Positions 1,731-33,852 of a DNA stretch of 64,000 nucleotides are shown in pieces (positions within the stretch are counted from its first letter, which is position 1; each line of letters starts with the position of its first letter). A program made the translations under genes and the position numbers. The notes below the pieces were generated by a model. The model worked only from the letters and a program-made list of their open reading frames with translations. It was not told where the DNA came from and searched no databases. Source of the stretch: Luteibacter aegosomatissinici (GTDB lineage Bacteria; Pseudomonadota; Gammaproteobacteria; Xanthomonadales; Rhodanobacteraceae); NCBI RefSeq assembly GCF_023078495.1, contig NZ_CP095742.1, positions 2,976,001-3,040,000 of the forward strand, read 5' to 3'.

Positions 1731-2425
1731 AGGCGCTGGCGCCGACTGCTCCCGTCTGCTCCCTCCAAACGGTCAAGGAGACGATGTTCTTCTTCAAGGA
1801 GAACCCGCAGCGCAGCCTCCCGGACCGGATAAGGACTTTCCCGCGTTTCACGAGCGTGGATATGGGACAAGCAAGCGCCATGCCGCCATCGTGCAGGCGA
1901 CCACTCCTCCGGTGACATCACCCTGCCGCTAAAAGTGTTCCTGCACGCGCCCGGCCCCTGCATGAGCAAGACATCCGGAACGAGTGCTGCCTTTTTTTCA
2001 GGTCCTGAAAGCCAGGCACGTGTGGCATCGAACACATCCGCGCCGCCGTCCTGGAGCGCCTCGCGCAGGGCCGTCTCGAACGCCTCACGTGCCAAGCTGT
2101 CCACGACAGTCGGATGGTGCTCTTGCATGATGCCCGCAAGGTCATCGACCACGAGCAGAAGCCCGAGGGAGCCTGTCAACGCATAAGGCCAGTTCGCCGG
2201 CCAGCTCATCCACGCCGCAGACGGATAGGCGGCCATGACCTCGGGTGTAGCGGGTGCCAGCATGTACCCGGCCGCCGACAACCAGTCGGCCATCTCCTCG
2301 GGTCGCTGACGACGGCCGTATGGCACATTGAATTCATCGGGATGAAATGCACGGGCGCGGACGACATCCGGAACATCGTTCAACAGCTCGGTGAAGTCCT
2401 CGGCATACTCAATCAGGTTGCCCAT
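1727..2425 (-). CDS. Hypothetical protein, 232 aa
   Basis: The ATG at 2425 is preceded by CAGGA at eight bases. The protein begins MGNLIEYAEDFTELLNDV and is acidic and Trp-containing in its first 150 residues, with a hydrophobic patch (ALTGSLGLLLVVDDL) that is too polar to be a clear membrane segment. The C-terminal third is Arg/Glu-rich and ends in a basic tail. No recognised catalytic motif. It is downstream of, and on the same strand as, the response regulator gene, but 311 bp away, so cotranscription is uncertain. It converges with the gene at 1323-1730 and shares a CTAG stop palindrome with it. Confidence 0.6.
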   Translation of the reverse strand: MGNLIEYAEDFTELLNDVPDVVRARAFHPDEFNVPYGRRQRPEEMADWLSAAGYMLAPATPEVMAAYPSAAWMSWPANWPYALTGSLGLLLVVDDLAGIMQEHHPTVVDSLAREAFETALREALQDGGADVFDATRAWLSGPEKKAALVPDVLLMQGPGACRNTFSGRVMSPEEWSPARWRHGACLSHIHARETRESPYPVREAALRVLLEEEHRLLDRLEGADGSSRRQRL

Positions 2426-2736
2426 GGGAATCCTGGCGGGACCCCCATCCTGGCAAGGACGCGCCTCCGGTCAAGCAGCTGGTCGTCCCGGCAAAGTGAC
2501 AGGATGTCGCGCGATGACGCACGCCAGCAAGCAACTGCCCCGACAGGGCGAGGCTCGACCGGCCGAGGGACATCATCGCCGAGTCGCCCCGTGCTGGCAT
2601 GACAGCAGGAGGGGCATACCGGCATCGCCAGACAGGACCAGGCGCGTCATCACAGCGTCCGGAAAGAAAGGATTCCCGGGCAAGGCGTCGGCGGGAGGCC
2701 GTCACCCGGGAAGCGTTTGCAACGGGACGCGTCGGG
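2426..2736. other. Intergenic stretch without a convincing gene
   Basis: These 311 bases separate the response regulator stop from the next minus-strand gene start. A minus-strand frame runs through (2409-2798), but its codon use is poor and it overlaps both neighbours, so I do not call it. I see no strong hairpin terminator or tRNA. Confidence 0.5.
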
Positions 2737-3372
2737 TCAGATGTCGAGAAAGCCCCGGCGAAGCGCGATGGTGACTGCGTGGGTGCGGTCATTGGCACCG
2801 AGCTTGGCCATGATGTTTCGCATGTGGGCCTTTACGGTGTCTTCCGTCACCTCGAGCCTGTCTGCGACCGCCCGATTGGAGTTGCCGCTGGCCACCTGCT
2901 CGAGAACCTCGACTTCCCGTGCCGTCAGCGAATCGTCCGCAGCATACTCCGCGATTTCCGACGCAACCTCTGCCGGCACCCGCCTTTGTCCGTTGTAGAC
3001 AGCACGGATGGTGTCGAGGAGGTCGGTGCGAAGGCTCGCCTTGAGCAGATAGGCCTGTGCACCGGCCTTGAGTGCACGGGCCGCCTGGACGTCACCGAGA
3101 TAGGTGGTGAGCATGACAAACCGTGCATCCGGATGTGCGGCCCGGATTGCCGTGATGACATCGATGCCATTCATGTCCGGAAGGCGAAGGTCCATGATGG
3201 TCACATCAGGCCGCTCGGCGTGGAAGCGGTCGATGCCACCCCCGCCGGTTCCCGATTCACCAACGAGCGCCATGTCCGGCTCACTGGCAATCATTGCACC
3301 GAGTCCCTCACGGATGAGCGGGTGGTCATCGACAATGAGGATGCGTATGCGCGGACGCTCCGGGGCATTCAT
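2737..3372 (-). CDS. NarL/FixJ-family DNA-binding response regulator, 211 aa
   Basis: Transcriptional output of a two-component system. The start at 3372 (MNAPERPRIRILIVDDHPLI) has AAAGGTG six bases upstream; the frame is open further upstream but reads as non-coding. The receiver domain (about residues 8-125) has the acidic pair Asp15/Asp16, the phosphoacceptor Asp61 in IMDLRLPD, the switch Thr in MLTTY and the conserved Lys in YLLKAS. A LuxR-type helix-turn-helix follows (about 148-211; LTAREVEVLEQVASGNSNR). The likely partner is the HisKA_3 sensor kinase at 5227-8310 in the same minus-strand cluster, with the flavoprotein gene between them. The 109-bp gap upstream may carry an extra promoter. 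Its targets are unknown. Confidence 0.93.
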   Translation of the reverse strand: MNAPERPRIRILIVDDHPLIREGLGAMIASEPDMALVGESGTGGGGIDRFHAERPDVTIMDLRLPDMNGIDVITAIRAAHPDARFVMLTTYLGDVQAARALKAGAQAYLLKASLRTDLLDTIRAVYNGQRRVPAEVASEIAEYAADDSLTAREVEVLEQVASGNSNRAVADRLEVTEDTVKAHMRNIMAKLGANDRTHAVTIALRRGFLDI

Positions 3373-3481
3373 GTGGGCACCTTTTGTGTTGCTCCGGCCA
3401 AAAGAATCGAACCATCGCCATGATGACGTGGCACGACCATCGCCGCGTCGTCCTTTCGTGTAGTCAAGGCGGTCATTGGCC

Positions 3482-5155
3482 TCAGACCGCCAGGGCCGGC
3501 TCGAGCGCCCCGAGGTATACATGCAAGTCGGCAATGACCGCCGAGCCCTCGCCGACGGCAGCGGCCACGCGCTTGACCGAGCCGTGGCGCACGTCGCCGA
3601 TGGCAAACACACCAGGCGTACTGGTCATGTATCGGGCTCCGATTACGCCGGCGTCGTCACCGGTGCACACAAAGCCATTTCGGTCGAGAACGACCGTGCC
3701 ACCGAGCCACCCAGTGTTGGGACTGGCGCCAATCATCACGAAGATATCGCCGACGTCGCATTCGATGACATCGCCCAGGCCCTTCCGCTCGAGAACCACT
3801 GTCTCGAGCGTCTCCTCCCCGACAATCCTGCGAAGCTCGGTCTGCAGGTGCACACTGATTCGCGGATTTGAACGGATGCGCTGGACGAGGTAGTGCGACA
3901 TCGTCGCATCCAGGGACGCGCCGCGCACCGCAAGGTGCACCTCCCTTGCCGTCGCGGCAAGATGGAGCGCCGCCTGCCCGGCAGAGTTGCCCGCCCCGAT
4001 GACCAGCGCTCCCTTCCCCCTGCACCGCGCTGTCTCGACTGTCGTGGCCGCGTAATGGATGGACCGGCGCTCGAACCGCTCGCTGCCGTCAATGGCGAGC
4101 CGACGATAGCGCGCGCCAGTGGCGATGATGACAGTCCGCGCCCTCACCCGCTGGCCATCGGCAAAGACAAGCGAATGGATGCGAGCGTCGGGCTCCATGC
4201 GCACAATCTCACGGGAGATTTCAAGGTGCGCACCGAGCCGCTGGGCCTGCACCTCGGCTGCGGACGCAAGCTCCTGGCCAGATACGCCATTGGAAAACCC
4301 GAGGTAGTTCTCGATGCGGGAGCTCGTCCCGGCCTGTCCGCCGGGCGCGTTGCCATCAATGACAATCGTGCGCAGGCCTTCGGATGCGGCATAAACGGCC
4401 GAGGCCAGGCCGGAGGGACCGGCACCGACGATTGCCACGTCAAAGAGCGCGTCGGCGTCAAAGACGTTGCTGATGCCAAGCGCCCGGGCGACTGCCTCGT
4501 TCGATGGATTGTGCAGGATGCGGTTGTCGGACAGAAAGACGACCGGGAGCCCGTTCGGCGGCAGGTCCATCCCGGCAAGCAGCAGTTCCGCCGTGCCGTT
4601 CGAGACAGGGTCGAGGACGCGGTGAGGATAGTTGTTGCGGAAAAGGAACTGCTGCAGTCGGGTGGTATCGGGCGCCATTGCCGCGCCGAACACGATGGCG
4701 CCGCCCGCGCAGCTCTCAAGCAACAGCGTGCGTCTGTGCATCCAGCATTGGGTGATGACGTCGGCAATGTCGAGTTCGGTGTGAATCAGGCGCCGGAGCG
4801 CCTCTGGCGCAATCCTGAGGACGGTGCTTCGGGCAGAAGCCCTGCAGTTGAGCAGTGTCTCCCGCCCGCTGTAGAGGTCGAGTTCGCCGGAGAACTGGCC
4901 TTTGATCAGCGTGATGCCTGCCCTTCCGAGCCGGCTCTTTTTCTCCCCGGACAACTGGACGGCACCACTGAGGACGATGACGAAGTCCGCCTCCCGACTG
5001 CCACGCTCAAACAGGACCGCGTCCTGCCCGACCGCCTCGATTGTGCCGTACGGCATGAGCCGGCCAATCATCTCGCTGGAGAAGGCAAACGCACCGCCCT
5101 CTCCACCCTTCGCACGACGCGAACTGCGGGACCCGCCAGCTTTCTTCTTGTCCAT
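3482..5155 (-). CDS. Cyclic-nucleotide-binding domain fused to thioredoxin-reductase-like FAD/NAD(P) oxidoreductase, 557 aa
   Basis: Three parts are visible. A cNMP-binding (Crp-like) fold spans about residues 28-145 (FVIVLSGAVQLSG; SGELDLYSGRETLL). A glutaredoxin-like segment without a redox Cys pair spans about 150-230. A TrxB-like flavoprotein follows, with the FAD Rossmann motif GAGPSG at 244-249, NAD(P) motif GAGNSA at 387-392 and the C-terminal FAD motif GVFAIGD. The CxxC of true thioredoxin reductases is replaced by YAATTVE (368-374), so it should not reduce thioredoxin by the classical mechanism. The start at ATG 5155 has AAGGAAGG just upstream; the longer frame to 5212 lacks one. It sits between the sensor kinase and its regulator, 72 bp after the kinase. 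A role in redox or nucleotide sensing is inference. Confidence 0.9.
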   Translation of the reverse strand: MDKKKAGGSRSSRRAKGGEGGAFAFSSEMIGRLMPYGTIEAVGQDAVLFERGSREADFVIVLSGAVQLSGEKKSRLGRAGITLIKGQFSGELDLYSGRETLLNCRASARSTVLRIAPEALRRLIHTELDIADVITQCWMHRRTLLLESCAGGAIVFGAAMAPDTTRLQQFLFRNNYPHRVLDPVSNGTAELLLAGMDLPPNGLPVVFLSDNRILHNPSNEAVARALGISNVFDADALFDVAIVGAGPSGLASAVYAASEGLRTIVIDGNAPGGQAGTSSRIENYLGFSNGVSGQELASAAEVQAQRLGAHLEISREIVRMEPDARIHSLVFADGQRVRARTVIIATGARYRRLAIDGSERFERRSIHYAATTVETARCRGKGALVIGAGNSAGQAALHLAATAREVHLAVRGASLDATMSHYLVQRIRSNPRISVHLQTELRRIVGEETLETVVLERKGLGDVIECDVGDIFVMIGASPNTGWLGGTVVLDRNGFVCTGDDAGVIGARYMTSTPGVFAIGDVRHGSVKRVAAAVGEGSAVIADLHVYLGALEPALAV

Positions 5156-5226
5156 CACCGCCTTCCTTAAAAAATTGTGGAGTCCGCACCCGTCGGTGGC
5201 ACTTCGCTCCAACGCCGTTGCACTCG

Positions 5227-8200
5227 TCAGCCCGCGCGTCTCTTCCTGCGCTCGGCAAAGGCAATCGACGCGGGGAGGATGAGCTCGAGCCGGGTGCCTG
5301 ACGGGTCCGCTGAGAGGACCTTGAGCCGACCGCCGATGCCTGCCGCCCGTTCATGCATGCCGCGCAGGCCCCAATGTCCGGGACGGCCACCCGCCGCCAG
5401 GACGTCCGCAGGTATGCCGCCTCCATCGTCTGCAATGATGAGATGCACGGCCCTTGGCCTGAACAGGACCGAGATGCAGACTTCCGATGCGCGCGCGTGC
5501 CTTGCCACGTTGGTCAGTGCTTCGCGCGCGATAGCATCGAATTCGAGATGGACCGAAGGCGAAAGCGGCCTTGCCTTGCCGGTTTCGACAAACGCGACGG
5601 CAACCGCAGTGTCGACAAGGCTCATGTGTGCGATGTGCTGCAGACGCGTCATGAGGTCTGCGTCGTCGGGTGCATCCGACCTCAGGTCCTGGACGCGGTT
5701 TCGCCCCTCTACCATCAACTGGTCTGCCTGCCGGAGGGCAAGCTCCATGCGTTCGCTCAGGTCAGGCTGGTCGACAACCTGCCTTGCCAATGCCGAAAAC
5801 TTCATGGCGAGGCCCTGCACCCCCTGCAAGAGGGTGTCGTGCAACTCGCGCGAGATGCGCAGCCGCTCGCCATAGCGCCCGGAGAGACGGGCGCGGACCT
5901 CGGTCTCGGCGGCGCGCACCCTCAGCTGCACCAGCACGAGAAGGCACGTGACCACTGCGAGGAGGCAAAGCAGACGAAACCAGAGCGTCTGGTATACCAG
6001 CGGCAGGACGTCGAGCTCCAGCGGTGTCGCCAGCGTCGTCCACGTCCCCGCACCGTTGGACGCCATCACCTCAAAGCGGTACTTGCCATTCTTCAGGCCT
6101 GTGTATATGGCTTCCGTGCCACGCCCCGCATCACGCCAGGCCTTGTCCTCACCATCGAGGCGATAGCGGTAACGGACCTGCTCGGGTGCGGCGAGGTTGA
6201 CGCCCACGTACCCGATGGACAACGTATGGGTCCCTGCGGGAATTGCCTCGCCAGCATGAAGGGGCACACTGTCGGCCTCAATGGAACGGATGCTGACCTT
6301 GCTCGGCGGGCGCAAGGGCGTTTTCTGTCCGAGGTCGATGTATGCGATGTAGCGGGAGATGGAAAACCAGGCGCGCCCTGCCCCGTCGAGGACCGCACTG
6401 GGACGCACATACGGTGAACGGCCACCCGAGAGGTCGCCGCCCGAAAACGACTGGACCTCGATGACGTGCGCTGGGTCCGCCAGGGCCTGGCCAACCTCGC
6501 CGGCCGAAAGCAGTGCAACGCCTTCCTCGCCGTTGACCCAGACATCCCCATTGGGCGCCTCCACGAGTCCGGAGACATTATGGACGGTGAGCGGGTCGTC
6601 GGTCCGCAAGGTCCGAAAGCGCTGCCCGTCAAAAAAGGCTATGCCCTTCGCCCCGCCAGCAAACACTCCCCTCGAACTGTCGAGGAACACCTCAACCATG
6701 CCAACGTCCCCATCCCAGCGCCGAATGGTGTTGCCCTGCAACGAGGCAAGGGGTCCGTCCGCATAACCGAGCCAGACACGCCCCCTGCGGTCGGTCAGCA
6801 TTGCAACCGGCTCGTCGACGTCGTTGAGGTCGCCCTGGTCAATGGATGACCATGTGCCGTTTGCATAGCGCCACAGCCCCTCATAGGACACCAGGATGCC
6901 GTCTGCATCCCCGGTGATGGCCTGCGCGGTAAACGAGCCTTTTTTCGGAAGGGAAATCTCCTCGAAGTGTTTCCCGCCAGGCCTTGCAACGCCGAATCCC
7001 GACGGATTGCTGGTGGCAGCCCACAGGGCCCCGTCGGGGGCCCCGTAGAGCGTCGACCACTGCCGCTCCGTTGCATGGACCGTGTCTTCGCCAGTGCCGA
7101 CGAGGCGCAGCGGCGTGTGCCAGCCGGCAATCCACACATGCCCGGCAGGGCCCGCAGCGAGCTTGAGTTGATGCTCCGGAATGCTGTCGAACTTGTGGAG
7201 CGTCGGCGGAGTGAAGCGGTCAAGGCCATCCTTGCCGGCAAACCAGACATTGCCAAAACTGTCGCGGCGGACAAGATAGGCCGAGTCGCTGGTCAGACCG
7301 TTGGCTGCGGTGAACCCTTCGACGGTCCAGGCGTGCGACCCATCCGACGAGGGGTCGGCGGACGGTCGCACATGCAACGCACCCGAGAAGGATGCGACCC
7401 AAACCGATCCGTCGGCATCGAGCCAGAGGTTGCCCCGCCCCACGGGCCCGCAGGGGACGGGAACGGCCAACTCTTCCGCGCGGTGGCCCGGCAGGTTAAG
7501 GCGACGGAGCGTGCACCCACGACCCACTGCATGCGCGGCAGAAGGTGCCTCACGACGGGCAAGGGCCCACATCGAATGGTCCGGTGCTTCGTGGAGCACA
7601 TCGGCCGACCAACCGCGTGTTGGAATCTCGTGCGGTGAGCGCTCACCTCTTGCCAGCCAGGAAATCTTTCCTGGCGACGCGCCCCAAAGGGTATCGGCCG
7701 AGTCCATGGAGAAGCGGGTGTCGCGCCGGATGCCGTAGCGCACCACCCACGTTGAGCCCTGCAGCACAAAAATGCCGCCGGCCTCGGTTTCCGCATACAC
7801 ACTTCCTGATGAATCCTCGAAGATGGATTCGATGTCGGTGTTGGGCAGACCCGTGTCATGACCAAAGACCCGGGTCCCGCCTGTACCAACACTCGCAATG
7901 TCGCCCGTGGTGTATCCCACCCAGACCGTTCCATCCCTTGCCGTCATCAGGGCGGTCGGGATATCGAGCGGCAACTCCGGTTGACCTGCCGGAGACCGGT
8001 AGGGCGCCATGCGCAGACCATCAAAGGTGAGGAGCTTGCTGCCGCTGACAAGCCACAGCAGTCCATCGGATGACTCGGTCATCAGGATGATTTCGTTCGG
8101 CGCCTCATGCAGGAAGCGTTGCGCGAAATGGTCGTACTGGGACAACGGCAAAGACGGGGCGGCTGGTGTGCCTGCGGACAGACACCACAGTGACAGCAGC

Positions 8201-8310
8201 ATCCACACCTGCCAACGCCATGCAAGGGCCCGCAACACCGCCAAACGACAACTCCTGTGTTCCACGGTGGCAACGATACTTCCGCGCACTGCGCGCACGG
8301 GGCACCGCAT
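5227..8310 (-). CDS. Two-component sensor histidine kinase with periplasmic beta-propeller (Reg_prop) and Y_Y_Y domains
   Basis: Up to 1,027 aa. After an N-terminal hydrophobic segment (WMLLSLWCLSAGTPAAP) comes a long periplasmic region of propeller repeats, recognisable by recurrent W-x-G/A-T and D-G-x-x-W-x-G motifs (for example DGTVWVGYTTG). A Y_Y_Y domain follows, then one membrane segment (LWFRLLCLLAVVTCLLVLV), a HisKA_3 dimerisation domain with the phosphoacceptor His in SRELHDTLLQGVQGL, and a HATPase_c domain (EALTNVARHARAS; ADDGGGIP; GLRGMHERA). It should autophosphorylate and pass phosphate to the NarL-type regulator at 2737-3372. The ATG at 8310 has no ribosome-binding site. A TTG at 8244 lies seven bases after AGGAG and gives a clean signal peptide, so the true start may be there. 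A promoter is visible at 8429-8458. Confidence 0.92.
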   Translation of the reverse strand: MRCPVRAVRGSIVATVEHRSCRLAVLRALAWRWQVWMLLSLWCLSAGTPAAPSLPLSQYDHFAQRFLHEAPNEIILMTESSDGLLWLVSGSKLLTFDGLRMAPYRSPAGQPELPLDIPTALMTARDGTVWVGYTTGDIASVGTGGTRVFGHDTGLPNTDIESIFEDSSGSVYAETEAGGIFVLQGSTWVVRYGIRRDTRFSMDSADTLWGASPGKISWLARGERSPHEIPTRGWSADVLHEAPDHSMWALARREAPSAAHAVGRGCTLRRLNLPGHRAEELAVPVPCGPVGRGNLWLDADGSVWVASFSGALHVRPSADPSSDGSHAWTVEGFTAANGLTSDSAYLVRRDSFGNVWFAGKDGLDRFTPPTLHKFDSIPEHQLKLAAGPAGHVWIAGWHTPLRLVGTGEDTVHATERQWSTLYGAPDGALWAATSNPSGFGVARPGGKHFEEISLPKKGSFTAQAITGDADGILVSYEGLWRYANGTWSSIDQGDLNDVDEPVAMLTDRRGRVWLGYADGPLASLQGNTIRRWDGDVGMVEVFLDSSRGVFAGGAKGIAFFDGQRFRTLRTDDPLTVHNVSGLVEAPNGDVWVNGEEGVALLSAGEVGQALADPAHVIEVQSFSGGDLSGGRSPYVRPSAVLDGAGRAWFSISRYIAYIDLGQKTPLRPPSKVSIRSIEADSVPLHAGEAIPAGTHTLSIGYVGVNLAAPEQVRYRYRLDGEDKAWRDAGRGTEAIYTGLKNGKYRFEVMASNGAGTWTTLATPLELDVLPLVYQTLWFRLLCLLAVVTCLLVLVQLRVRAAETEVRARLSGRYGERLRISRELHDTLLQGVQGLAMKFSALARQVVDQPDLSERMELALRQADQLMVEGRNRVQDLRSDAPDDADLMTRLQHIAHMSLVDTAVAVAFVETGKARPLSPSVHLEFDAIAREALTNVARHARASEVCISVLFRPRAVHLIIADDGGGIPADVLAAGGRPGHWGLRGMHERAAGIGGRLKVLSADPSGTRLELILPASIAFAERRKRRAG

Positions 8311-8428
8311 GCCCGAGCGGCGCGAGCACTCGCGGGATGGCCTTGATCACTCCACTGAACCGCGCGACCGACGCCGAAGTCGCTGACGCGGGTACTCAAA
8401 ACGCCAGCCAAGCGGATAGTCAATTCAT

Positions 8429-8458
8429 AATATGAAGCCTGTCATGGCCGACTGTCAA
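8429..8458 (-). promoter_or_regulatory. Predicted sigma-70 promoter for the sensor kinase cluster
   Basis: On the minus strand a perfect TTGACA (8453-8458) is followed after 18 bases by CATATT (8429-8434), matching four of six -10 positions. It points toward the kinase gene and would leave a leader of roughly 110-180 bases. The sequence between the kinase and the plus-strand gene at 8661 is about 350 bp and contains this promoter and the one at 8602, with no other gene visible. Confidence 0.5.
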
Positions 8459-8601
8459 TTGAGCCTGGGCTTGGCAGCCGGGAGCGATGCTGGATGGGGC
8501 GAACAGCCCCGTCCAATCCTGCCCTGAGCCGGGTCACCGGAGGGACCGGGCCGTCGCTGGCATCAACCCAAAGGGACGCATCTACCACAAAAAAAGATCT
8601 A

Positions 8602-8648
8602 TTGACAAGACGTCAGAAAGCCGTACGATATACGCAACATATCCGTAC
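8602..8648 (+). promoter_or_regulatory. Predicted promoter with overlapping imperfect inverted repeat, upstream of the ribbon-helix-helix gene
   Basis: TTGACA (8602-8607), 16 bases, then TACGAT (8624-8629). An imperfect inverted repeat, GTACGATAT at 8623-8631 and ATATCCGTAC at 8639-8648, overlaps the -10 element and the expected transcription start. This is a natural place for autorepression by the RHH protein encoded 13 bp downstream. The 11-mer CGTACGATATA here (8622-8632) also occurs in the PadR-family operator at 46652-46662. Confidence 0.55.
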
Positions 8649-8660
8649 AAGGTACACGCC

Positions 8661-8867
8661 ATGGACAAGACCAAGCTGACCGTGAACCTGTCTGACGACG
8701 TCACCCAGGCACTCCGCGCACTCGCGGCAGAGAAAGGCATCAGTCTCACGGAAGTCCTCCGGCAGGCCATCAGCATGGAGCGGTTCCTCAGTCAGGAAGT
8801 CAATGAGGGAAAGAAGATCCTCATTGAGGACAAGGACGGCAGCATGCGTCAGGTCATCTTCCGGTAA
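8661..8867 (+). CDS. Ribbon-helix-helix (CopG/Arc-like) protein, 68 aa
   Basis: The ATG at 8661 (MDKTKLTVNLSDDVTQAL) follows AAGG at eight bases. The pattern is a short beta strand (KLTVNLS), helix A (DDVTQALRALAAEKG), a turn and helix B (SLTEVLRQAISMERFL), which is the RHH fold of dimeric DNA-binding proteins. The tail (KKILIEDKDGSMRQVIFR) resembles the C-terminal extension of stand-alone RHH proteins. There is no adjacent toxin of a known family. The downstream gene, 27 bp on, encodes a small membrane protein. Likely a DNA-binding repressor of its own operon, given the inverted repeat at its promoter; that is inference. The frame stays open upstream, but without coding character. Confidence 0.75.
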   Translation: MDKTKLTVNLSDDVTQALRALAAEKGISLTEVLRQAISMERFLSQEVNEGKKILIEDKDGSMRQVIFR

Positions 8868-8894
8868 GCCAAACAAGACAGAAGGATGGTCAGC

Positions 8895-9221
8895 ATGGAA
8901 GACTTGGGCGACATCGAATTGTTTGACGAGGTCAGCACCACCCCGTATGTGCCCGTCGCCGCGACACATCTGACAATCACCCAGTCGCCGCCACCAAAGA
9001 CCGAGCCATACAATGCCGGGAAAGCCATGGACGAGGCGCGCCGCAAGCTCGCCTACCTCCTTGCATGGCTGTTGGCGGTCATCTGCTGCTTTACGTTGTT
9101 TTGTGTTGCGGTCGGCGCAGACTTCGACCACCTGAAGGGCATCCTCGAGCTCGTCATCGGGCCCGTTGGCTCACTCGTTGGCGCCGCGACCGGCTTTTAC
9201 TTCGGAAGCCAGGCGAAGTAG
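8895..9221 (+). CDS. Small membrane protein, 108 aa
   Basis: The ATG at 8895 (MEDLGDIELFDEVSTT) has AAGG nine bases upstream. The ATG at 8886 is too close to that site. The first 55 residues are soluble and acidic. Two hydrophobic segments follow: LLAWLLAVICCFTLFCVAVG, and a Gly-rich one near the end (LVIGPVGSLVGAATGFYFG) before a short polar tail. This layout resembles small two-helix membrane proteins often encoded in accessory DNA. Cotranscribed with the RHH gene. I do not assign a function. The 279 bp between its stop and the integrase stop (9222-9500) show no gene. Confidence 0.65.
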   Translation: MEDLGDIELFDEVSTTPYVPVAATHLTITQSPPPKTEPYNAGKAMDEARRKLAYLLAWLLAVICCFTLFCVAVGADFDHLKGILELVIGPVGSLVGAATGFYFGSQAK

Positions 9222-9500: not shown

Positions 9501-11000
9501 TCAAGCGAAGACGTCCCGAGCCGGCGTGACCGGGAAGTCCAGCAGTCGGATGGCATCGAGCACCTGCTTCTTGGGTGCATCCATGCCGTAACTTGCATGG
9601 TGCTCGTCGTCGAGGTCGTGGCCAACATACGCCGCGCGCACTTCCGCCTGGACGCCCTTGGCCTGAAGGGTTTGAATCAGGGTCTTGCGGAAACTGTGGA
9701 AACCGAGTTTGCCCGTTTCGGGCTTGACCAGCAGTTCGCCAAGATGGCGGCCGAAGGCCTTGGACAACCAGTCACCCTTGCCGTTTGTGGCCGCCCCGGC
9801 TTTTGTGGCACGACGACCCACGCGGGGAAACAGGCGCTTTTCGCCTTCAGCCCGCAAGCGTTCAACGCGCTTCAAGAGTCCCATCTTGATGAACTCGGGG
9901 TGGACGGGAATGACGCGATTGGAAAAATCGTTCTTCGTGCTCTGCCCGTCGCCCTCATCCGTAATCCGCAGACAGGGAATGCCGTCGACGTCAAAAAAGT
10001 CGTCGAGCATGAGCTGGCCAATTTCGGAAACCCGCGCGCCGGTGAAAAGTCCCATCCACACACCAAGGCGGGCTTCGGGTTCAATCTTTTTGAGATTGTC
10101 CGGCGCAAAGAGGACCTTGAGCTGTGCGTCGGTAAATGGTTTGAAGCCATGCTTTTTCCGCAGGCGCTTTTCACGCGCACCATAGGTCGCGTGACCCGAG
10201 GCCGGGTTGTCGTTCCTGGGAAAGTCGACAAAGCCTTTTCCTTTTGCCCATTCGAGAAAGCCCCGCAGATACGACAGCCGGTTGACGATGGTCGGTGTGG
10301 CGAGGTTTCTCGCACGCAGTTCCGACACCCATCCCCCAATGACCACCCGCGTGCAGTCGTGGACGGGGGTGTCTGCACCTGCGGTCCGAACGAAATCTTC
10401 AAGCGCCTGGCGCTTTGACACGAGGGTCTTGCCACGGGTCGACTGCTGGATGTCCTTGACCCACTGCGTGACTGCTTTTTCGAGGAGCATGACGGCACTG
10501 GGGGCTGCAGGGGCAAGCACCGAGCGCTGTGCAGCAATGGTCGTGTGCGCGACTGATGTGGGTGCTGCGGGAGAACGTGCATCCGTGGGTGCGCTGTCGC
10601 GCATCAACGTCTGGACCATGGCTTCCTTGTGCATGTCGCCAATGCGGGCGATGGCCTCCATCGCCTCCATGTGGTCGGCGGCGTCCCTGGTTTCGAGTTC
10701 GACGGACCCGTCGGCGCCGACTTTCAGTTTGTACGTCTTGCCATTCCGGTTGAGGAATGCGGCGAGCTCATCGACGTTCCACTTCTTCCCTGCCATGCCA
10801 CGCGTCCTGACGACCGATTGGAGCTCATCATACGCACGCCAAAGTTCGAGGGCGAGGTCACGCGCAGGACCGAGGTCTCGCGTGGAAAGACTTTTCTTGA
10901 TGACGGCGTGTGGGAACAACACACGAAGAACAACCGGCACTCTCCGCCGGAAATGGAAGATGCCACTGGGTGACCGGACCAGGTAGTGCGGGATGCGCAT
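9501..11000 (-). CDS. Tyrosine-family site-specific recombinase (integrase), 499 aa
   Basis: The N-terminus (MRIPHYLVRSPSGIFHFRRRVP) is the short beta unit typical of the large integrases of genomic islands. A SAM-like core-binding region lies near residues 170-265. The catalytic domain shows the first Arg in GLFTGARVSEIG, His435 and Arg438 in HSFRK, His461 in YVGHD and the nucleophile Tyr471 in HHASYG, so the active site is complete. It reads away from the tRNA-Ser gene, whose 3' end is 89 bp upstream of its start, the standard arrangement for an element integrated in a tRNA 3' end. A pair of 11-bp direct repeats lies between them. No excisionase is recognised. Confidence 0.95.
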   Translation of the reverse strand: MRIPHYLVRSPSGIFHFRRRVPVVLRVLFPHAVIKKSLSTRDLGPARDLALELWRAYDELQSVVRTRGMAGKKWNVDELAAFLNRNGKTYKLKVGADGSVELETRDAADHMEAMEAIARIGDMHKEAMVQTLMRDSAPTDARSPAAPTSVAHTTIAAQRSVLAPAAPSAVMLLEKAVTQWVKDIQQSTRGKTLVSKRQALEDFVRTAGADTPVHDCTRVVIGGWVSELRARNLATPTIVNRLSYLRGFLEWAKGKGFVDFPRNDNPASGHATYGAREKRLRKKHGFKPFTDAQLKVLFAPDNLKKIEPEARLGVWMGLFTGARVSEIGQLMLDDFFDVDGIPCLRITDEGDGQSTKNDFSNRVIPVHPEFIKMGLLKRVERLRAEGEKRLFPRVGRRATKAGAATNGKGDWLSKAFGRHLGELLVKPETGKLGFHSFRKTLIQTLQAKGVQAEVRAAYVGHDLDDEHHASYGMDAPKKQVLDAIRLLDFPVTPARDVFA

Positions 11001-11010
11001 CGGGACTCCA

Positions 11011-11033
11011 ATGTGTCCCGAAATGTGTCCCGA
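11011..11033. repeat. Tandem direct repeat (ATGTGTCCCGA twice)
   Basis: ATGTGTCCCGA occurs at 11011-11021 and 11023-11033, a 12-bp period, directly before the integrase start and close to the tRNA 3' end. Such short iterations beside an integrase are candidates for recombinase arm-binding sites or for repression of the integrase promoter. Confidence 0.6.
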
Positions 11034-11062
11034 TGGCGGTTTGGCAGGTCAAGTGCAAGTGA

Positions 11063-11086
11063 CTGATTTTATTACCAAAAAATCAG
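11063..11086. other. AT-rich hairpin immediately downstream of tRNA-Ser
   Basis: CTGATTTT (11063-11070) and AAAATCAG (11079-11086) form an eight-base-pair stem with an eight-base loop, two bases beyond the encoded CCA of the tRNA. It could be a weak tRNA terminator or belong to the attachment site. No T-run follows it on the minus strand. Confidence 0.4.
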
Positions 11087-11088
11087 CT

Positions 11089-11178
11089 TGGCGGAGAGAG
11101 TGGGATTCGAACCCACGGTAGGCTTACACCTACGGCAGTTTTCAAGACTGCTGCCTTAAACCACTCGGCCATCTCTCC
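11089..11178 (-). tRNA. tRNA-Ser (anticodon UGA)
   Basis: The minus strand gives a 90-base class II tRNA: acceptor stem GGAGAGA pairing with TCTCTCC, a D arm, the anticodon TGA in loop CTTGAAA (anticodon at 11142-11144), a long variable arm with stem GTAGG/CCTAC, the T arm with GGTTCGAATCC, and an encoded CCA (11089-11091). Its 3' end faces the integrase and is the probable attachment site of the element to the left. Confidence 0.97.
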
Positions 11179-12816: not shown

Positions 12817-15774
12817 TTACCCCAGCACCAAGCCTCGGCGGTAGGCCAGCCGGGCCGGCACCCGCAGCGTGGCACGGGTGCCACCCTCGTCGATGCGTGC
12901 GAACACGAGGGTGCCGCCGATCTCCCGGGCCCGCTCGCGCATGCCGGCCATGCCCCAGCGCCCTTCGGGCACCGCCGCCTCGGTATCGCTCATGCCAACA
13001 CCATCATCGGCCACCACGGCCAGAAGGGCCTGGCGTTCATAGCGCAGCGCCACGCACACCCGCTTTCCCTGCGAATGCCGGAACGCATTGGCGACGAGCT
13101 CCTGCACGATCGCGTGCACCTCATCCGCCACCGCCGGGCGAAGGGCGCGCGGCTGGCCCGTCACCTCCACGGAAACCGTCATGCCGTGCGGTCCACCGAT
13201 CAACGCCGCCAACTTCTGCACGTCGGCGGGCAACGACTCCAGCGAATCATTGACCGAACGTAGCCCCATGATCTTCTCGCGACCCTGCGCCAGGGCGTCC
13301 TCGGCGATGTCCACCACCTTGGCGAATCGTTCGCGGGTTGCGCCTTCGGTGCGTTGGCCGGCCGCATGCGCGTGGAACAGCAGGGCCTGGAAGTGTTGCA
13401 GCAGCGAATCGTGGAGATCGCGAGCGATGCGCTCACGCTCTTCGAGGCGGGTCTGGTGAGCAGCAAAAACGCGCGCCATGTGCCGGCGATACACCACCCA
13501 CAGCGCGGCGAGCAGGGCCAGTACGCACAGCACGCGGAACCACCAGGTCTGGTAGAACGCCGGCAGGATCCGGAAGGCCAGCGTCGTCGCCGCCACCGGC
13601 CACGTGCCATCGGCAGCGGAAGCCTGGATCCGGAACTGGTAGTGACCGGGGCCCAGGTTGGAGTAATGCACGCGCCGCTGCACGCCGGCATCCTGCCAGC
13701 CCTCATCAATGCCGCTGAGCTCGTAACGAAAGCGGGTTTTCGCGGGCGCGACCAAGGTGGGCGCGGTGAAGCCGATCTCGACGCTTCGCGTGCCTTCCTC
13801 GAGTGCCGCAGCGTTGCCGCCGGTGAAGCGAAGGTCCTGGCCGTTGAGGGTTTCAACAGCGACAGTCGGCGCGGGCGCTGCGGCGGCAATGTGTGCAGGG
13901 TCGATCCACGCCACGCTGCGCTCGCTCGCGAGCCACATGCGCCCGTCCGTGCCCTCCTCCAGCGGATCGAGCTGGATAGTGCCGGAGGTGCCACGCAAGC
14001 CATCGTCCTGATCGAACACCGTGTCGCTCACCACGTGACCGGGCGACGCGATGGCGGCGTCAATCTCCGCAGAGGGCAACAGGAACAAACCTCGCGTGGT
14101 CAGCAGCCACAGGTCGCCATTCGCGCGCTCCACCATGTCACCCGCACCCGCGTAGCGTTCGCCATGCGTGCCGGTGATGCGCTGGAAGTGTTCACCCCGC
14201 TTCAGCATGAGGCCATCGCCGCCACTCACCCACAAACCGCGCTTGCCCACGTAGAGACCATCCACGGCACCCACTTCCACGCCATCGGCGCCGCCGTAAC
14301 GCTTCTCCTTCCCGCCGGCCAACATCACCAGCACGCTGCCCGGCCGGCCGATCCATGCACGGTCGGCCTCGACTACGAGCGAAAGCGCCGTCTTGGGAAA
14401 CATGTTGGCCCAGTCGTGGCCATCCCAGCGCCAGATGGTGTTGCCCAGGTCCATCCAAAGGTCGCCAGCGGGTCCCGTCGCCATGCCATGGCAGGCCCTG
14501 CCCGGCGCTTCCGCCGTGCGCCCGTTCGTGCGCATGGGCGGCAGGGGAATGGCTTCGGTCACGCCACCGCGCAGGCGGTGCAGTGTCTGGTCCGCACTCA
14601 TCCACACGCTGCCATCGGCGGCGCGGGCGAAGCAGTTCACGTGCGTGCCCAGTTCGGGATGCGGCTCGACGGCTGCGCCGGCGAGCAAGGGCGGCATCGT
14701 CGAGCGGCTCGCGATCCACAGCGTGCCGTTATCGCCGGCCACGATAGTGGGGTGGTACACCCCCTGCGGTAGCGGCACGGGCGTGAACCGCGTGGCCCTG
14801 AACTGTTCCAGGCCGCGCGAACTCGCCACCCATACATTGCCGTCGCGGTCGACGTAGTCGGCGGTGACATCCACATCCTCGCCATCGCCGAAGCGCACCC
14901 GCTCCGTGATCAGTTGGCGCGTGCCATCACGCGTCTCGGCGTGATAGCGCAGCAGGCCATCACTGGTCGGGATCCACAGGGCGCGGTACCGGTCGACGAT
15001 CATGTCGGCGGTGGGCGTGGCACTGATGTGCACGGCATGCTCGGGCAAGTCGGCCATCGCGGCGATGCCCGCATCGGCGTCCACGCGCTCGAACACATCG
15101 GCGCCAGGACGCCGCCGGTAGGCGTCGTTGCCGCTGAACGCCCAGTACGAGCCATCCCAGCCGGTGCCATACAGGTTGAAATAGACGCCCCGGTCACCCT
15201 TGGCCGAGGTGACGTTCACCGGCTTGAACTGTTTGCCGGTGAGCTCGACGAGACCACCCGCCGTGCCCAGCCATACGCCACCATGGGGGCCGTTGCTGAG
15301 CGACATGCTGGTGACCAGGGCGTGCCCCGTCTCCACATCAGCCACGACGCCGTGATTGATCCTGACGACGCGGCCACGCAGCGTGCCGACCCAAAGCGCG
15401 CCCTCGCGGTCGCCAAAGACGGTGGTGATCAGGTCGGCGCCCAGCGCCTTTTCGAACATGCGCTCGAAGCGCACGCCATCGAACCGGTAGAGGCCATTGG
15501 CGCCACCGACCCACAGGTAGCCATCGCGATCCTGGGTGATCGCGTAGATGCCTTGTGGGGCCCCATCGCGCATGGTGAACAGGGTGCGTTGCAGTTGCTC
15601 CACCGCAAGGAACGCGGGCATTTGCGAGGGCGCTGCCTGGGTGGCACTGGGCGCCTGGGCCACGCTCACGCTCGGGCCGGCCGCCGCCAGGGCCGCCAGC
15701 GCGGCGCCAAACAGATGTCTATATGCACTCACGCAGAGTGCGCGCCGCGCCTGCCCGAGCAGCGTAAAAAGCAT
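12817..15774 (-). CDS. Two-component sensor histidine kinase with Reg_prop propeller, Y_Y_Y and HisKA_3 domains, 985 aa
   Basis: Same architecture as the kinase at 5227-8310. It has a signal-peptide-like start (HLFGAALAALAAAG...VAQA), a periplasmic propeller with recurring D-G-x-x-W-x-G repeats (DGYLWVGGANGLYRFDG), a Y_Y_Y domain, one membrane segment (WWFRVLCVLALLAALWVVY), HisKA_3 with the phospho-His in IARDLHDSLLQHFQAL, and HATPase_c (VQELVANAFRHSQGK; VADDGVGMS; GMAGMRERA). It lies 86 bp upstream of the serS start on the same strand, with no response regulator beside it, so its partner must be elsewhere. The start at 15774 lacks a strong ribosome-binding site; the GTG at about 15732 is an alternative. 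The ligand is unknown. Confidence 0.92.
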   Translation of the reverse strand: MLFTLLGQARRALCVSAYRHLFGAALAALAAAGPSVSVAQAPSATQAAPSQMPAFLAVEQLQRTLFTMRDGAPQGIYAITQDRDGYLWVGGANGLYRFDGVRFERMFEKALGADLITTVFGDREGALWVGTLRGRVVRINHGVVADVETGHALVTSMSLSNGPHGGVWLGTAGGLVELTGKQFKPVNVTSAKGDRGVYFNLYGTGWDGSYWAFSGNDAYRRRPGADVFERVDADAGIAAMADLPEHAVHISATPTADMIVDRYRALWIPTSDGLLRYHAETRDGTRQLITERVRFGDGEDVDVTADYVDRDGNVWVASSRGLEQFRATRFTPVPLPQGVYHPTIVAGDNGTLWIASRSTMPPLLAGAAVEPHPELGTHVNCFARAADGSVWMSADQTLHRLRGGVTEAIPLPPMRTNGRTAEAPGRACHGMATGPAGDLWMDLGNTIWRWDGHDWANMFPKTALSLVVEADRAWIGRPGSVLVMLAGGKEKRYGGADGVEVGAVDGLYVGKRGLWVSGGDGLMLKRGEHFQRITGTHGERYAGAGDMVERANGDLWLLTTRGLFLLPSAEIDAAIASPGHVVSDTVFDQDDGLRGTSGTIQLDPLEEGTDGRMWLASERSVAWIDPAHIAAAAPAPTVAVETLNGQDLRFTGGNAAALEEGTRSVEIGFTAPTLVAPAKTRFRYELSGIDEGWQDAGVQRRVHYSNLGPGHYQFRIQASAADGTWPVAATTLAFRILPAFYQTWWFRVLCVLALLAALWVVYRRHMARVFAAHQTRLEERERIARDLHDSLLQHFQALLFHAHAAGQRTEGATRERFAKVVDIAEDALAQGREKIMGLRSVNDSLESLPADVQKLAALIGGPHGMTVSVEVTGQPRALRPAVADEVHAIVQELVANAFRHSQGKRVCVALRYERQALLAVVADDGVGMSDTEAAVPEGRWGMAGMRERAREIGGTLVFARIDEGGTRATLRVPARLAYRRGLVLG

Positions 15775-30944: not shown

Positions 30945-31937
<993 letters not shown>

Positions 31938-31984: not shown

Positions 31985-33118
31985 ATGAACGACATCCGCT
32001 TCCTGCAGGGCCTGCGCGATGTCCCCGCCGCCGACTGGGACGCGCTCATTCCCGATGGCAACCCCTTCGTATCCCATGCATTCCTGCACGGGATGGAGGC
32101 GAAAGGCTGCCTGCGCGAGGACTACGGCTGGGCGCCCTACCACCTCGCCATCTTCGATAACGGCCGGCTCGTCGCCGCCGCACCCACCTACCTGAAGGGC
32201 AACTCGCATGGCGAGTTCGTCTTCGACTGGAGCTGGGCCGCCGCGTGGGAACGTGCCGGCGGGCAGTACTACCCGAAGATGCTGGTGGCCTCGCCCTACT
32301 CGCCCGTACCCGGGCCGCGCCTGCTGGTGCGCGAAGGTCCGCTGGCCGATGTGTACCGCAACCAGCTGACGGCTGTGCTGGTCGACGAAGCCGAACGGCT
32401 GGGCCTGTCGTCCATCCACGCCAATTTCCTTGCGCCGGCCGATCTGCACGCGTTTGACGACCGCTGGCTGGAACGATCCGACTACCAGTTCCACTGGCAC
32501 AACCGTGGTTATGGGTCGTTCGACGATTTCCTGGCCGCGCTGACCGCCAAGAAGCGGAAGAACATCCGTCAGGAACGCGCGAAGGCGCACGCCTCGGGCC
32601 TCACCCTGGAGATGCGCGGCGGTGATGAACTCACCGACATGGAATGGCGGCAGATCCATGGGCTGTACGAGCTCACCTTCGACCTGAAAGGCAACCACGC
32701 CGCGCTCACCGCCCGCTTCTTCCAGTACCTGGGCCGCGAGCTGGGTGCGAATGTGCAGGTGGCGATGGCCCGCGATGAGCACGAGATCGTCGCCATGGCG
32801 CTGTTCCTGCGCGGCGGCGGTGCACTCTACGGCCGTTACTGGGGCGCCAGCGTCGAGGTCTCAGGGCTGCACTTCGAACTGTGCTACTACCGGGGCATCG
32901 ACTACGCGATCCGCGAAGGCCTGACACGCTTCGAGCCCGGCGCCCAGGGCGAGCACAAGCTGGCTCGCGGCTTCCTGCCCACGCTCACCCATTCGCGCCA
33001 CTTCATCGCCCACGACGGCTTCCGCCGCGCCGTGGCCGAGGCCCTTGAACACGAGGCCGAACACCGCGAGGCTTACCGCGCCGAACTGCTCACCCATTCG
33101 CCGTACGCGGACCGATGA
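31985..33118 (+). CDS. GNAT/FemAB-like family protein (COG3146), 377 aa
   Basis: Resembles the peptidoglycan-biosynthesis-type GNAT proteins grouped as COG3146/DUF482. Features seen: RDVPAADWDALIPDGNPFVSHAFL at the N-terminus, GPRLLVREGP, the KKRKNIRQERAKA segment, and FEPGAQGEHKLARGF near the end, which together mark the family. No signal peptide. The substrate is not known. Its TGA stop overlaps the aat start by four bases (ATGA), so the two are translationally coupled. Confidence 0.85.
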   Translation: MNDIRFLQGLRDVPAADWDALIPDGNPFVSHAFLHGMEAKGCLREDYGWAPYHLAIFDNGRLVAAAPTYLKGNSHGEFVFDWSWAAAWERAGGQYYPKMLVASPYSPVPGPRLLVREGPLADVYRNQLTAVLVDEAERLGLSSIHANFLAPADLHAFDDRWLERSDYQFHWHNRGYGSFDDFLAALTAKKRKNIRQERAKAHASGLTLEMRGGDELTDMEWRQIHGLYELTFDLKGNHAALTARFFQYLGRELGANVQVAMARDEHEIVAMALFLRGGGALYGRYWGASVEVSGLHFELCYYRGIDYAIREGLTRFEPGAQGEHKLARGFLPTLTHSRHFIAHDGFRRAVAEALEHEAEHREAYRAELLTHSPYADR

Positions 33119-33852
33119 TTCGCCTGCCCCAGCTCCACCCTGCCCGCCCGGGCCAGTTCCCCGACCCGGAACAGGCGCTGGAGGATCCCAATGGCCTGCT
33201 TGCGTGGGGCGGCGATCTTTCGGCCGAGCGATTGCTTTCGGCGTACGCCCAGGGCGTGTTCCCCTGGTTCAACGAAGACGAGCCGATCCTGTGGTGGTCG
33301 CCCAACCCGCGCTGCGTGTTTCGTACCGATGGCGTGCACATCAGCCGCAGCCTGAAGAAGCAGCTGGCGAGAACAAACTGGCGGCTCACAGCCGATACGT
33401 CATTCGCGCGCGTGATGCGCGCCTGCGCCGAACCGCGTGATGGCCAGCCAGGTACGTGGATCAGCGACGAGATGATCGTGGCGTACCAGGAGTTGCACCG
33501 GCTGGGCCACGCACACAGCGTCGAAGTGTGGGACCGCGGCTCACTGGTCGGCGGCATTTACGGCGTGGCGATCGGCCGGCTGTTCTGCGGCGAATCGATG
33601 TTCAGCGCGCGCACCGGCGGCTCGAAAGTGGCACTCGCCGGCCTGTGCCAGATGTTGCATGGCTGGGGCTTTCCGCTACTCGATGCACAGGTAACGAACC
33701 CGCACCTGGTCAGCATGGGCGCCATCGAAGTTCCCCGCAAACAGTTCGTCGCCCAGGCCCGCCGCCTCGCAGCGATGCCAGGCATGCCCGGCAGCTGGAT
33801 CAAAGCCCAGGTACCCATGCCAACAACATCTCGCCCGATCGACGACCTGTAG
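33115..33852 (+). CDS. aat: Leucyl/phenylalanyl-tRNA-protein transferase, 245 aa
   Basis: Adds Leu or Phe to proteins with N-terminal Arg or Lys, making N-end-rule degradation signals for ClpS/ClpAP. The conserved QGVFPWFNEDEPILWWSPNPR, the EVWDRGSLVGGIYGVAIGRLFCGESMFS core and LLDAQVTNPHLVSMGA are all present. Length is normal. Its ATG overlaps the preceding stop. The gene stops at the TAG (33850-33852) of the REP element that begins at 33849. aat and trxB are also linked in E. coli. Confidence 0.97.
   Translation: MIRLPQLHPARPGQFPDPEQALEDPNGLLAWGGDLSAERLLSAYAQGVFPWFNEDEPILWWSPNPRCVFRTDGVHISRSLKKQLARTNWRLTADTSFARVMRACAEPRDGQPGTWISDEMIVAYQELHRLGHAHSVEVWDRGSLVGGIYGVAIGRLFCGESMFSARTGGSKVALAGLCQMLHGWGFPLLDAQVTNPHLVSMGAIEVPRKQFVAQARRLAAMPGMPGSWIKAQVPMPTTSRPIDDL

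Follow-up and report, generated by a model that had tools for sequence, protein, structure and literature searches.

Introduction

Thioredoxin reductase (TrxR)-like flavoproteins that carry a cyclic-nucleotide-binding (cNMP)-type domain form a widespread, little-studied family, and our searches turned up a single biochemical study of a protein presumed to belong to it. This enzyme, ATII-TrxR, is described (PMC6544261) as reducing DTNB and thioredoxin with NADPH or NADH, and as being 87% identical to a C. metallidurans protein. Family proteins are named by PGAP as "cyclic nucleotide-binding domain-containing thioredoxin-disulfide reductase" or "FAD-dependent oxidoreductase". Two further enzymes invite comparison, the canonical low-molecular-weight thioredoxin reductase (TIGR01292) and AhpF (PDB 4xvg, 4o5q, and 1hyu), as do, on the signalling side, systems in which a Reg_prop/Y_Y_Y/HisKA_3 sensor kinase is paired with a NarL-type regulator.

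Here we analyzed a 64,000-nucleotide stretch of the Luteibacter aegosomatissinici genome (contig NZ_CP095742.1, positions 2,976,001 to 3,040,000), hereafter the window. Its kinase and regulator have the same domain order and regulator class as those systems, whereas the usual pairs lack the flavoprotein gene that lies between the two here. What is new, as judged from sequence, is that a divergent member of a known flavoprotein family is encoded between the genes for a sensor kinase and for the regulator that it likely acts on, a position which also sets this copy apart from ATII-TrxR-type proteins. Such a position offers a handle on the function of the family, as the regulator could reveal when the protein is made.

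Arrangement of the three genes

The initial annotation placed a kinase, a flavoprotein and a NarL-type regulator next to one another on the minus strand, and open reading frames and domain matches confirmed this:

5227..8310, minus strand: kinase ORF (Reg_prop, Y_Y_Y, HisKA_3, HATPase_c)
3482..5155, minus strand: flavoprotein ORF, 557 aa (cNMP_binding and Pyr_redox_2)
2737..3372, minus strand: NarL-type response regulator, 211 aa (receiver, Response_reg, and GerE)
5156..5226, minus strand: kinase-flavoprotein gap, 71 bp, with Shine-Dalgarno-like AAGGAAGG before the flavoprotein ATG
3373..3481, minus strand: flavoprotein-regulator gap, 109 bp
8429..8458, minus strand: promoter-like TTGACA-18-CATATT ahead of the kinase, near the level expected by chance

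The HisKA_3 and HATPase_c domains of the kinase, as well as the receiver and GerE domains of the regulator, scored above the Pfam cut-offs. The trio is compact and co-directional, with intact reading frames in all three genes. Of the gap sizes given previously, 109 bp was exact and 72 bp becomes 71 bp by coordinates. The flavoprotein ATG is preceded in the shorter gap by the ribosome-binding-like AAGGAAGG, as read from the sequence, and no terminator-like sites were reported in either gap. A plausible promoter ahead of the trio had also been proposed. The site is present, but two promoter-like sites were found in 2400-9000 compared to 0.9 +/- 0.9 in shuffled sequences, and because this count is near the shuffle expectation the site is not evidence by itself.

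By our reading of its sequence, the kinase has a signal-like stretch at its N-terminus and a later hydrophobic stretch; its start is uncertain, the first ATG being at 8310 and a codon model favoring approximately 8151. No homologue with more than 35% identity was present among the matches listed for 299 genomes of the order or for 349 genomes of the phylum (two candidates scored per genome in each case), and among 72,556 plasmid records six matched at 1e-60, with a best identity of 30%. The protein closest to the regulator in its own genome is 58% identical. In 13 of 29 related kinase loci a homologue of the regulator (>200 bits) lies within 1.5 kb, on the same strand in nine of the 13, which suggests that the window kinase and regulator are likely a cognate pair.

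The co-directional genes, the 71- and 109-bp gaps and the lack of reported terminator-like sites within them favor an operon. We tentatively prefer, with slightly less than even confidence, to read the locus as a one-off operon-like unit, carried by a probable genomic island, in which the flavoprotein is a stress or redox effector controlled by the kinase and regulator; this is the most likely reading, with chance placement close behind. The kinase, presumably anchored in the membrane and bearing a putative periplasmic propeller and Y_Y_Y sensor, would phosphorylate the NarL-type regulator, which would in turn drive its own operon, including the flavoprotein gene, and the flavoprotein would act under their control from outside the phosphorelay. 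A function shared by the three genes is plausible. The trio had been said to have no established description, and we likewise found none in literature titles and abstract openings among the matches listed.

Domains and cysteines of the flavoprotein

The following features were assigned to the flavoprotein:

4778..5026, minus strand: cNMP_binding domain, residues 44-126 (Pfam match above cut-off)
4478..4699, minus strand: middle thioredoxin-fold-like domain, residues ~153-226 (predicted strand/helix order)
3506..4447, minus strand: TrxR-like FAD and NAD(P)H domains, residues 237-550 (domain and fold matches)
4040..4051, minus strand: codons 369-372, A-A-T-T at the place of the TrxR CxxC (alignment)
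4022..4024, minus strand: Cys378, kept in 66 of 68 aligned members

The protein had been described as a cNMP-binding domain fused to a TrxB fold without CxxC. Pfam (cNMP_binding, 30.8 bits against a cut-off of 27.5; Pyr_redox_2, 115.7 bits) and alignment bear this out, but the description missed the stretch at residues ~153-226, in which, by our own reading, predicted strands and helices follow the thioredoxin-fold order. This middle domain has no cysteine, and its Pro204 is invariant in 20 members. The glycine motifs for FAD and NAD(P)H are kept (G244, G246, G249, G387, G389, N390, S391, and A392 are invariant in 20 members), and the protein is predicted to bind both.

Its sequence identifies the protein as a member of the cNMP-domain TrxR-like (ATII-TrxR type) family, whose architecture comprises a cNMP-type, a thioredoxin-fold-like and a TrxR-like domain. 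Its identity to members from other genomes and from plasmid records of Pseudomonadota, Actinomycetota, and Gemmatimonadota is 36-50%, for the most part across residues ~25-550, the best identity to any member seen being 49-50%. At E <= 1e-60 the family occurs in 116 of 72,556 plasmid records and in 35 of the 117 genomes searched from the family of the host. ATII-TrxR, the sequence of which lies outside our alignment, is a presumed relative; it and the PGAP-named proteins resemble the window copy in having cNMP-type and TrxR-like domains within about 552-557 aa. The aligned C. metallidurans member is 43.5% identical to the window copy and also lacks CxxC, but has cysteines at columns 208, 225, 322, and 487, all four of which are absent from the window copy.

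Where the control trxB of the window (30975-31937), a canonical thioredoxin reductase with the same FAD and NAD(P)H domains, has CATC, the flavoprotein reads Y-A-A-T-T. C-x-x-C was found nowhere in the 68 aligned family rows (rows picked by similarity to the window protein, many of them close kin), so its absence appears usual in the family, the aligned members of which do without the catalytic disulfide of the enzyme that gives the family its name. Cys378, Cys487, and Cys322 are present in 66, 60, and 54 of these rows, respectively, which are trimmed by match boundaries and have uncurated starts. The window copy keeps Cys378 and has Thr487 and Pro322 in place of the others; since seven other rows also lack both, these two cysteines are common rather than defining. 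A paralogue in the same genome (L043) retains the cysteines. Its terminal branch, with 1.05 substitutions per site, is the second longest of the 68, which could also mean relaxed constraint.

The GE motif of the cNMP domain is kept. Position 100, the presumed site of the phosphate-binding arginine, has Arg in none of the 68 rows, a placement for which we had no positive control. R or K occurs two residues earlier, at position 98, in 58 of 68. A strict CNB signature matched none of the 68 rows and a loose pattern matched 10; the strict form matched no control, failing at all seven CNB places of the own genome (four of them flavoproteins). In the structural model, the cNMP part is of low confidence (block means 34-67). 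The initial annotation had suggested, tentatively, that redox state or cyclic nucleotide is reported to the regulator by the flavoprotein. With no Arg at the presumed site in 68 rows, and with CxxC and cysteines 322 and 487 absent, signalling of either kind is unsupported.

The domain names themselves suggest a cAMP- or cGMP-gated thioredoxin reductase, consistent with the above-cut-off cNMP_binding match, with a TIGR01292 E-value of 8.1e-64, and with the thioredoxin reduction reported for ATII-TrxR (PMC6544261). However, the TIGR01292 score of 215.3 bits is below the cut-off of 343.45, CxxC is absent, and the presumed phosphate site has no Arg in any row, even allowing for the R/K two residues earlier and the loose pattern. 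We regard this as the least probable of the explanations considered.

Foldseek matched the flavoprotein model to AhpF and to thioredoxin reductases, with E-values down to 3.4e-33. Among the best 50 matches the closest superposition was with thioredoxin reductase 5mh4 (TMt 0.91), whose title names the FR conformation. AhpF gave the lowest E-values among the matches listed, over 417-424 columns that reach beyond the TrxR core, but with an rmsd of 12-18 A and a whole-chain TM of just 0.43-0.47. Compared to AhpF, the window copy lacks the core CxxC and any cysteine in its thioredoxin-fold-like domain, and has the cNMP-type domain in addition. The kept motifs, the fold matches and the measured activity of the presumed relative favor an enzyme, which would bind FAD, take electrons from NAD(P)H, and transfer them, without the use of a CxxC disulfide, to an acceptor.

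Gene order in other genomes

The trio does not recur as a gene order in the loci that we examined. The kinase-flavoprotein-regulator order was seen at none of 71 other flavoprotein loci, and a flavoprotein was near none of 29 related kinases (1.5-kb flanks); within these loci the trio occurs only here, an outcome that the initial annotation had named as speaking against its proposal. Because the order was not seen again in the 71 loci, there is no evolutionary evidence binding the three genes. Searches for the flavoprotein, under strict E-value limits, covered overlapping sets of 117 genomes from the family, 369 from the class, and 398 from the phylum, with 12, 3, and 3 candidates scored per genome, respectively; contig ends shorten a few loci (including L059, L060, L152, L156, and L169), and plasmid neighborhoods were examined for 11 of the 116 records. 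Within the 71 flavoprotein and 29 kinase neighborhoods examined, neither flavoprotein nor kinase searches of genomes and plasmids recovered the trio as a conserved module. A search of genome_contigs, by a method that needs near-exact short peptides, gave two hits (29 and 26% identity), the first of which is a canonical CATC reductase, and viral_contigs gave 11 loci. Genes outside the trio were called with a crude codon model trained on kinase and flavoprotein homologues.

The usual neighbor of the flavoprotein is a zf-UBP protein, within 1 kb at 19 of 71 loci. At L049 the flavoprotein is followed on the same strand by a Reg_prop/Y_Y_Y kinase, with zf-UBP upstream on the opposite strand; no gene resembling the window regulator was found in the stretch fetched, so it was rejected as a second trio. 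In the own genome, the 1,019-aa neighbor of the flavoprotein copy at 2831401, considered as a possible kinase, is a TonB-dependent-receptor-like protein. The copy at 3852542 has RF3 and a CAAX-protease-like gene as its two neighbors and a hybrid kinase farther out, and RF3 and a hybrid kinase flank the flavoprotein in nine same-genus loci including this one.

These observations bear on the possibility that an island flavoprotein gene landed between kinase and regulator during island remodelling, with at most read-through and no common function, to which we assign a substantial but minority probability. The absence of the trio from the other 71 flavoprotein and 29 kinase loci speaks for it. The genome has four flavoprotein copies, two of the other three also inside the probable island, and ten HisKA_3 kinases, and adjacency of the two would be expected about 0.02 times per genome (assuming about 4,350 genes, extrapolated from the 257 genes crudely called over 295 kb), so that a few such cases among many genomes, as at L049 without the regulator, are unsurprising. 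Set against this, insertion would have had to occur exactly between a likely cognate pair and on the same strand, leaving short gaps, a good ribosome-binding sequence and three intact frames. In the operon reading that we prefer, the arrangement would have arisen once, by placement of a divergent family member between the kinase and regulator genes.

The initial proposal that the flavoprotein is part of the signal circuit or its main output gains from the compact co-directional order, AAGGAAGG, and the regulator homologues near 13 of 29 kinases, and loses its redox- or cyclic-nucleotide-reporting element. We consider it unlikely that the flavoprotein is itself a third member of the signalling pathway, one that would read redox state or NAD(P)H in the cytosol and tune phosphorylation by docking on the kinase or regulator via its cNMP-type and thioredoxin-fold-like domains, both apparently inactive. 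A flavin core carrying two domains that look degenerate for ligand or redox function, the absence of two common cysteines, and a gene inside the kinase-regulator unit would fit such a role, as would the regulators, presumably FixJ-like, encoded within about 7 kb of the flavoprotein at L138, L139, L143, L148, and L150. However, those five are just 28-33% identical to the window regulator, linkage to this kinase or regulator class is not recurrent, and seven other rows lack the same cysteines. Very unlikely, in our estimate, is a three-protein unit in which a TrxR-fold flavoprotein stripped of disulfide chemistry reads cytosolic NAD(P)H/flavin redox state and gates the pair; if true, a periplasmic signal and the cell's reducing power would be read together. 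As a single case, the trio would gain broad meaning only with a physical or regulatory link to signalling.

The probable genomic island

The trio probably sits in a tRNA-Ser genomic island of about 227-259 kb, one end of which is in the window:

9501..11000, minus strand: tyrosine-integrase-like protein (DUF6538 and Phage_int_SAM_1 pass their cut-offs; Phage_integrase, at 18.9 bits, falls short of 27.1)
11089..11178, minus strand: tRNA-Ser (TGA), probable right attachment site

The integrase-like gene, whose catalytic-domain match is below the Pfam cut-off, adjoins the tRNA 3′ end, and homologues lie beside the same tRNA in three of eight same-genus stretches (L191, L192, and L195). Direct repeats of the tRNA 3′ end occur on the same strand at genome positions 2760301 (20 identical bp) and 2728088 (17 bp), with three further near-matches elsewhere in the genome; either left repeat may bound the island, since both share longer context with an inverted repeat. 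L193 and L194, where no integrase match was found, have DNA that matches 2724638-2725716 at distances of 7.7 and 15.5 kb from the same tRNA. These do not provide a clean empty site, because three segments within the supposed island (2804319-2804962, 2810791-2812164, and 2885977-2886682) have matches in L194 and L196 as well. In two relatives the integrase-bearing regions at this tRNA share other cargo, but nothing in the 19.5 kb retrieved from either one matched the trio region. We counted this against our preferred reading, together with the unrepeated order, the near-chance promoter, the long flavoprotein branch and the poor whole-chain AhpF superposition.

In three Rhodococcus/Nocardia plasmids, a family member lies within a dnaK-grpE-J-cbpM-clpB-trxA-zf-UBP cluster. 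Beyond the left edge of the window, the probable island that carries the trio also encodes a catalase (3.2-4.6 kb) and, closer in, a 2OG-Fe(II) oxygenase (0.3-1 kb); we counted these genes and the plasmid chaperone cluster in favor of the effector role.

The trio and its signals

The kinase, flavoprotein and NarL-type regulator described in the initial annotation as adjacent minus-strand genes were all three recovered by open reading frame and Pfam analysis, with each domain listed here scoring above its cut-off.

5227-8310, minus strand: kinase (Reg_prop, Y_Y_Y, HisKA_3, HATPase_c)
3482-5155, minus strand: flavoprotein (cNMP_binding, Pyr_redox_2)
2737-3372, minus strand: regulator (Response_reg, GerE)

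The gap between flavoprotein and regulator is 109 bp as originally given, but that between kinase and flavoprotein is 71 rather than 72 bp, and no terminator-like sites were reported in either. A promoter-like site does precede the kinase, as had been proposed, although it is one of 2 observed where 0.9 ± 0.9 were expected. The codon scores of the trio (0.17-0.22 per residue) are less host-like than that of the adjoining serS (0.39); some genes to the right of tRNA-Ser score equally low, for example 33115-33852 (0.21).

Recurrence of the gene order

Relatives of the flavoprotein were found in 35 of 117 host-family genomes (E <= 1e-60), in 22 of 398 phylum genomes including its own (1e-110), and in one of 369 class genomes, namely its own (1e-135). 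Among 72,556 plasmid records there were 116 with relatives at 1e-60, none at 60% identity or more, the top identity among the matches listed being 47.6%. Kinase relatives occurred in 44 of 299 order genomes at 1e-100, where nothing among the matches listed exceeded 35% identity apart from the kinase itself, in 3 of 349 phylum genomes at 1e-95, and in 6 of the 72,556 plasmid records at 1e-60.

We analyzed the neighborhoods of 71 other flavoprotein loci (3 paralogues from the same genome, 57 loci from other genomes and 11 plasmid records) and, taking flanks of 1.5 kb, those of 29 related kinase loci. A HisKA_3/Y_Y_Y kinase lay within 6 kb of the flavoprotein in only one of the 71 (L049), and a regulator resembling that of the trio was absent from all of them at >66 bits. 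Other histidine kinases also occur near the flavoprotein, the commonest being the hybrid kinase of 9 same-genus RF3 loci. A regulator resembling that of the trio (>200 bits) was present in 13 of the 29 kinase loci, and the flavoprotein gene in none. The search for the same gene order elsewhere, suggested in the initial annotation, therefore found it in neither set. Nor did the titles and abstract openings searched contain an account of the trio, in agreement with the earlier remark that no established description was known; the flavoprotein family is not mentioned in the portions of PMC8945050 and PMC1847454 consulted.

On the best reading, the trio would be a one-off operon, with the flavoprotein as a redox effector under the control of the kinase and regulator. 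Chance placement of the flavoprotein among kinase and regulator is nearly as likely.

The flavoprotein and its family

Against the thioredoxin reductase model the flavoprotein reaches 215.3 bits, below the cut-off of 343.45. The claim that its TrxB-like fold lacks CxxC was borne out, and C-x-x-C was found nowhere in any of 68 aligned rows (the protein and 67 relatives, selected by similarity to it and including many close kin); absence of the motif is thus the family norm and not peculiar to this gene. At the corresponding position the rows carry Y-[AWG]-[AC]-[TS], and the canonical trxB of the same window has CATC. The flavoprotein retains the glycine motifs for FAD and NAD(P)H. Its closest aligned relative is 49% identical, and its terminal branch (1.05 substitutions per site) is the second longest in the 68-row tree.

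A structure model was built from 12 sequences (mean pLDDT 74.6, with the cNMP part poor). The modelled strands and helices of residues 153-226 appear, in our reading, to follow thioredoxin-fold order; proline 204 is invariant in 20 members. The lowest Foldseek E-values belonged to AhpF (417-424 columns, TM 0.43-0.47, rmsd 12-18 Å), followed by thioredoxin reductases, and the best target TM-score in the best 50 rows was 0.91, for 5mh4 (title: FR conformation). No solved structure spanning the cNMP-type and TrxR-like parts was present among the best 60 of 416 (profile search) and 60 of 104 (single-sequence search) matches. The cNMP-type domain keeps its GE motif. At the presumed position of the phosphate-binding arginine, a placement for which the same genome yielded no positive control, none of the 68 rows has Arg. 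A looser pattern matches 10 of 68 rows, and 58 of 68 carry R or K two residues earlier, which might substitute.

Cysteines 378, 487 and 322 (window flavoprotein numbering) are frequent in the family (66, 60 and 54 of 68 rows, respectively); the window protein retains Cys378 and has Thr487 and Pro322. Seven further rows lack both Cys322 and Cys487, among them another island copy from the same genome (L042) and three actinobacterial plasmid copies (L140, L141, L144). ATII-TrxR (552 aa) is reported to join a Crp/cNMP domain to a TrxR domain and to use NADPH or NADH in reducing thioredoxin and DTNB; it is drawn with redox centres Cys206-Cys223 and Cys376-Cys467, and is 87% identical to one C. metallidurans protein (PMC6544261). 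Because of these domains and this identity, we treat it as a presumed family member. A C. metallidurans CH34 family member in the alignment has cysteines at columns including 208, 225, 322, 378 and 487; three of the four published ATII-TrxR cysteine numbers are offset from these by two, and Cys467 could not be mapped to them. Of these five CH34 columns, the window flavoprotein keeps only 378.

Other neighbors of the family

A small zf-UBP protein (PF02148, the domain being confirmed on one locus protein) is a recurrent neighbor, its open reading frame lying no more than 1 kb from that of the flavoprotein in 19 of the 71 loci (e.g., L139, L152-L155, L157-L160, L168, L187). The literature search found no publication combining "thioredoxin reductase" with "UBP-type zinc finger". 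On the Rhodococcus/Nocardia plasmids L140, L141 and L144, the flavoprotein gene is placed at the end of a chaperone cluster (dnaK-grpE-J-cbpM-clpB-trxA-zfUBP-flavoprotein-DUF1931), a setting that would fit a function in protein quality control alongside thioredoxin.

In five loci (L138, L139, L143, L148, L150; three from named Alphaproteobacteria, two from other genomes of the same phylum), regulators that are mutually 40-80% identical, and which we take to be FixJ-like, are encoded no more than ~7 kb from the flavoprotein gene and may connect it loosely with signalling. A direct part for the flavoprotein in the signal circuit, one of two roles initially proposed, is possible: its position between kinase and regulator points that way and these presumed FixJ-like neighbors hint weakly at it, but the positive evidence extends no further. 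The other proposed role, that of output gene, is the one retained in the best reading, a one-off operon.

A probable genomic island

Next to the trio lie the following features.

9501-11000: integrase-like gene (catalytic-domain match below the Pfam cut-off)
11089-11178: tRNA-Ser, beside the integrase-like gene

A search with the tRNA-Ser 3′ end returned six places: the tRNA itself, chromosome positions 2760301 (20 identical bases) and 2728088 (17), and three others. The repeats at 2728088 and 2760301 have nearly identical surroundings of ~60 bp, with an inverted repeat. Together with 9501-11178, they probably mark stacked genomic islands, and the trio is probably cargo of an island of ~227 or 259 kb. 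Of the 8 same-genus stretches fetched, three (L191, L192, L195) carry an integrase homologue next to the same tRNA. Cargo at 2955227-2962858 is common to L191 and L192, and the 19.5 kb of each contained no match to the trio region. The picture is not clean, as L194 and L196 have no integrase match yet match stretches within the supposed island.

Two of the three other flavoprotein copies of this genome fall inside the probable island. The copy at 2831401 is adjoined, convergently, by an HxlR-type regulator ORF (2830854-2831378), whose start is resembled by that of another ORF at 2815437-2815961. Among the nearby cargo beyond the window are a catalase, a Pyr_redox enzyme, a 2OG-Fe(II) oxygenase and a resolvase-type recombinase; 6 of the 10 proteins of that stretch that were scanned matched no Pfam family. 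A second Reg_prop/Y_Y_Y/HisKA_3 kinase (12817-15774) lies past serS on the opposite side of the tRNA, ~4.5 kb from the trio kinase.
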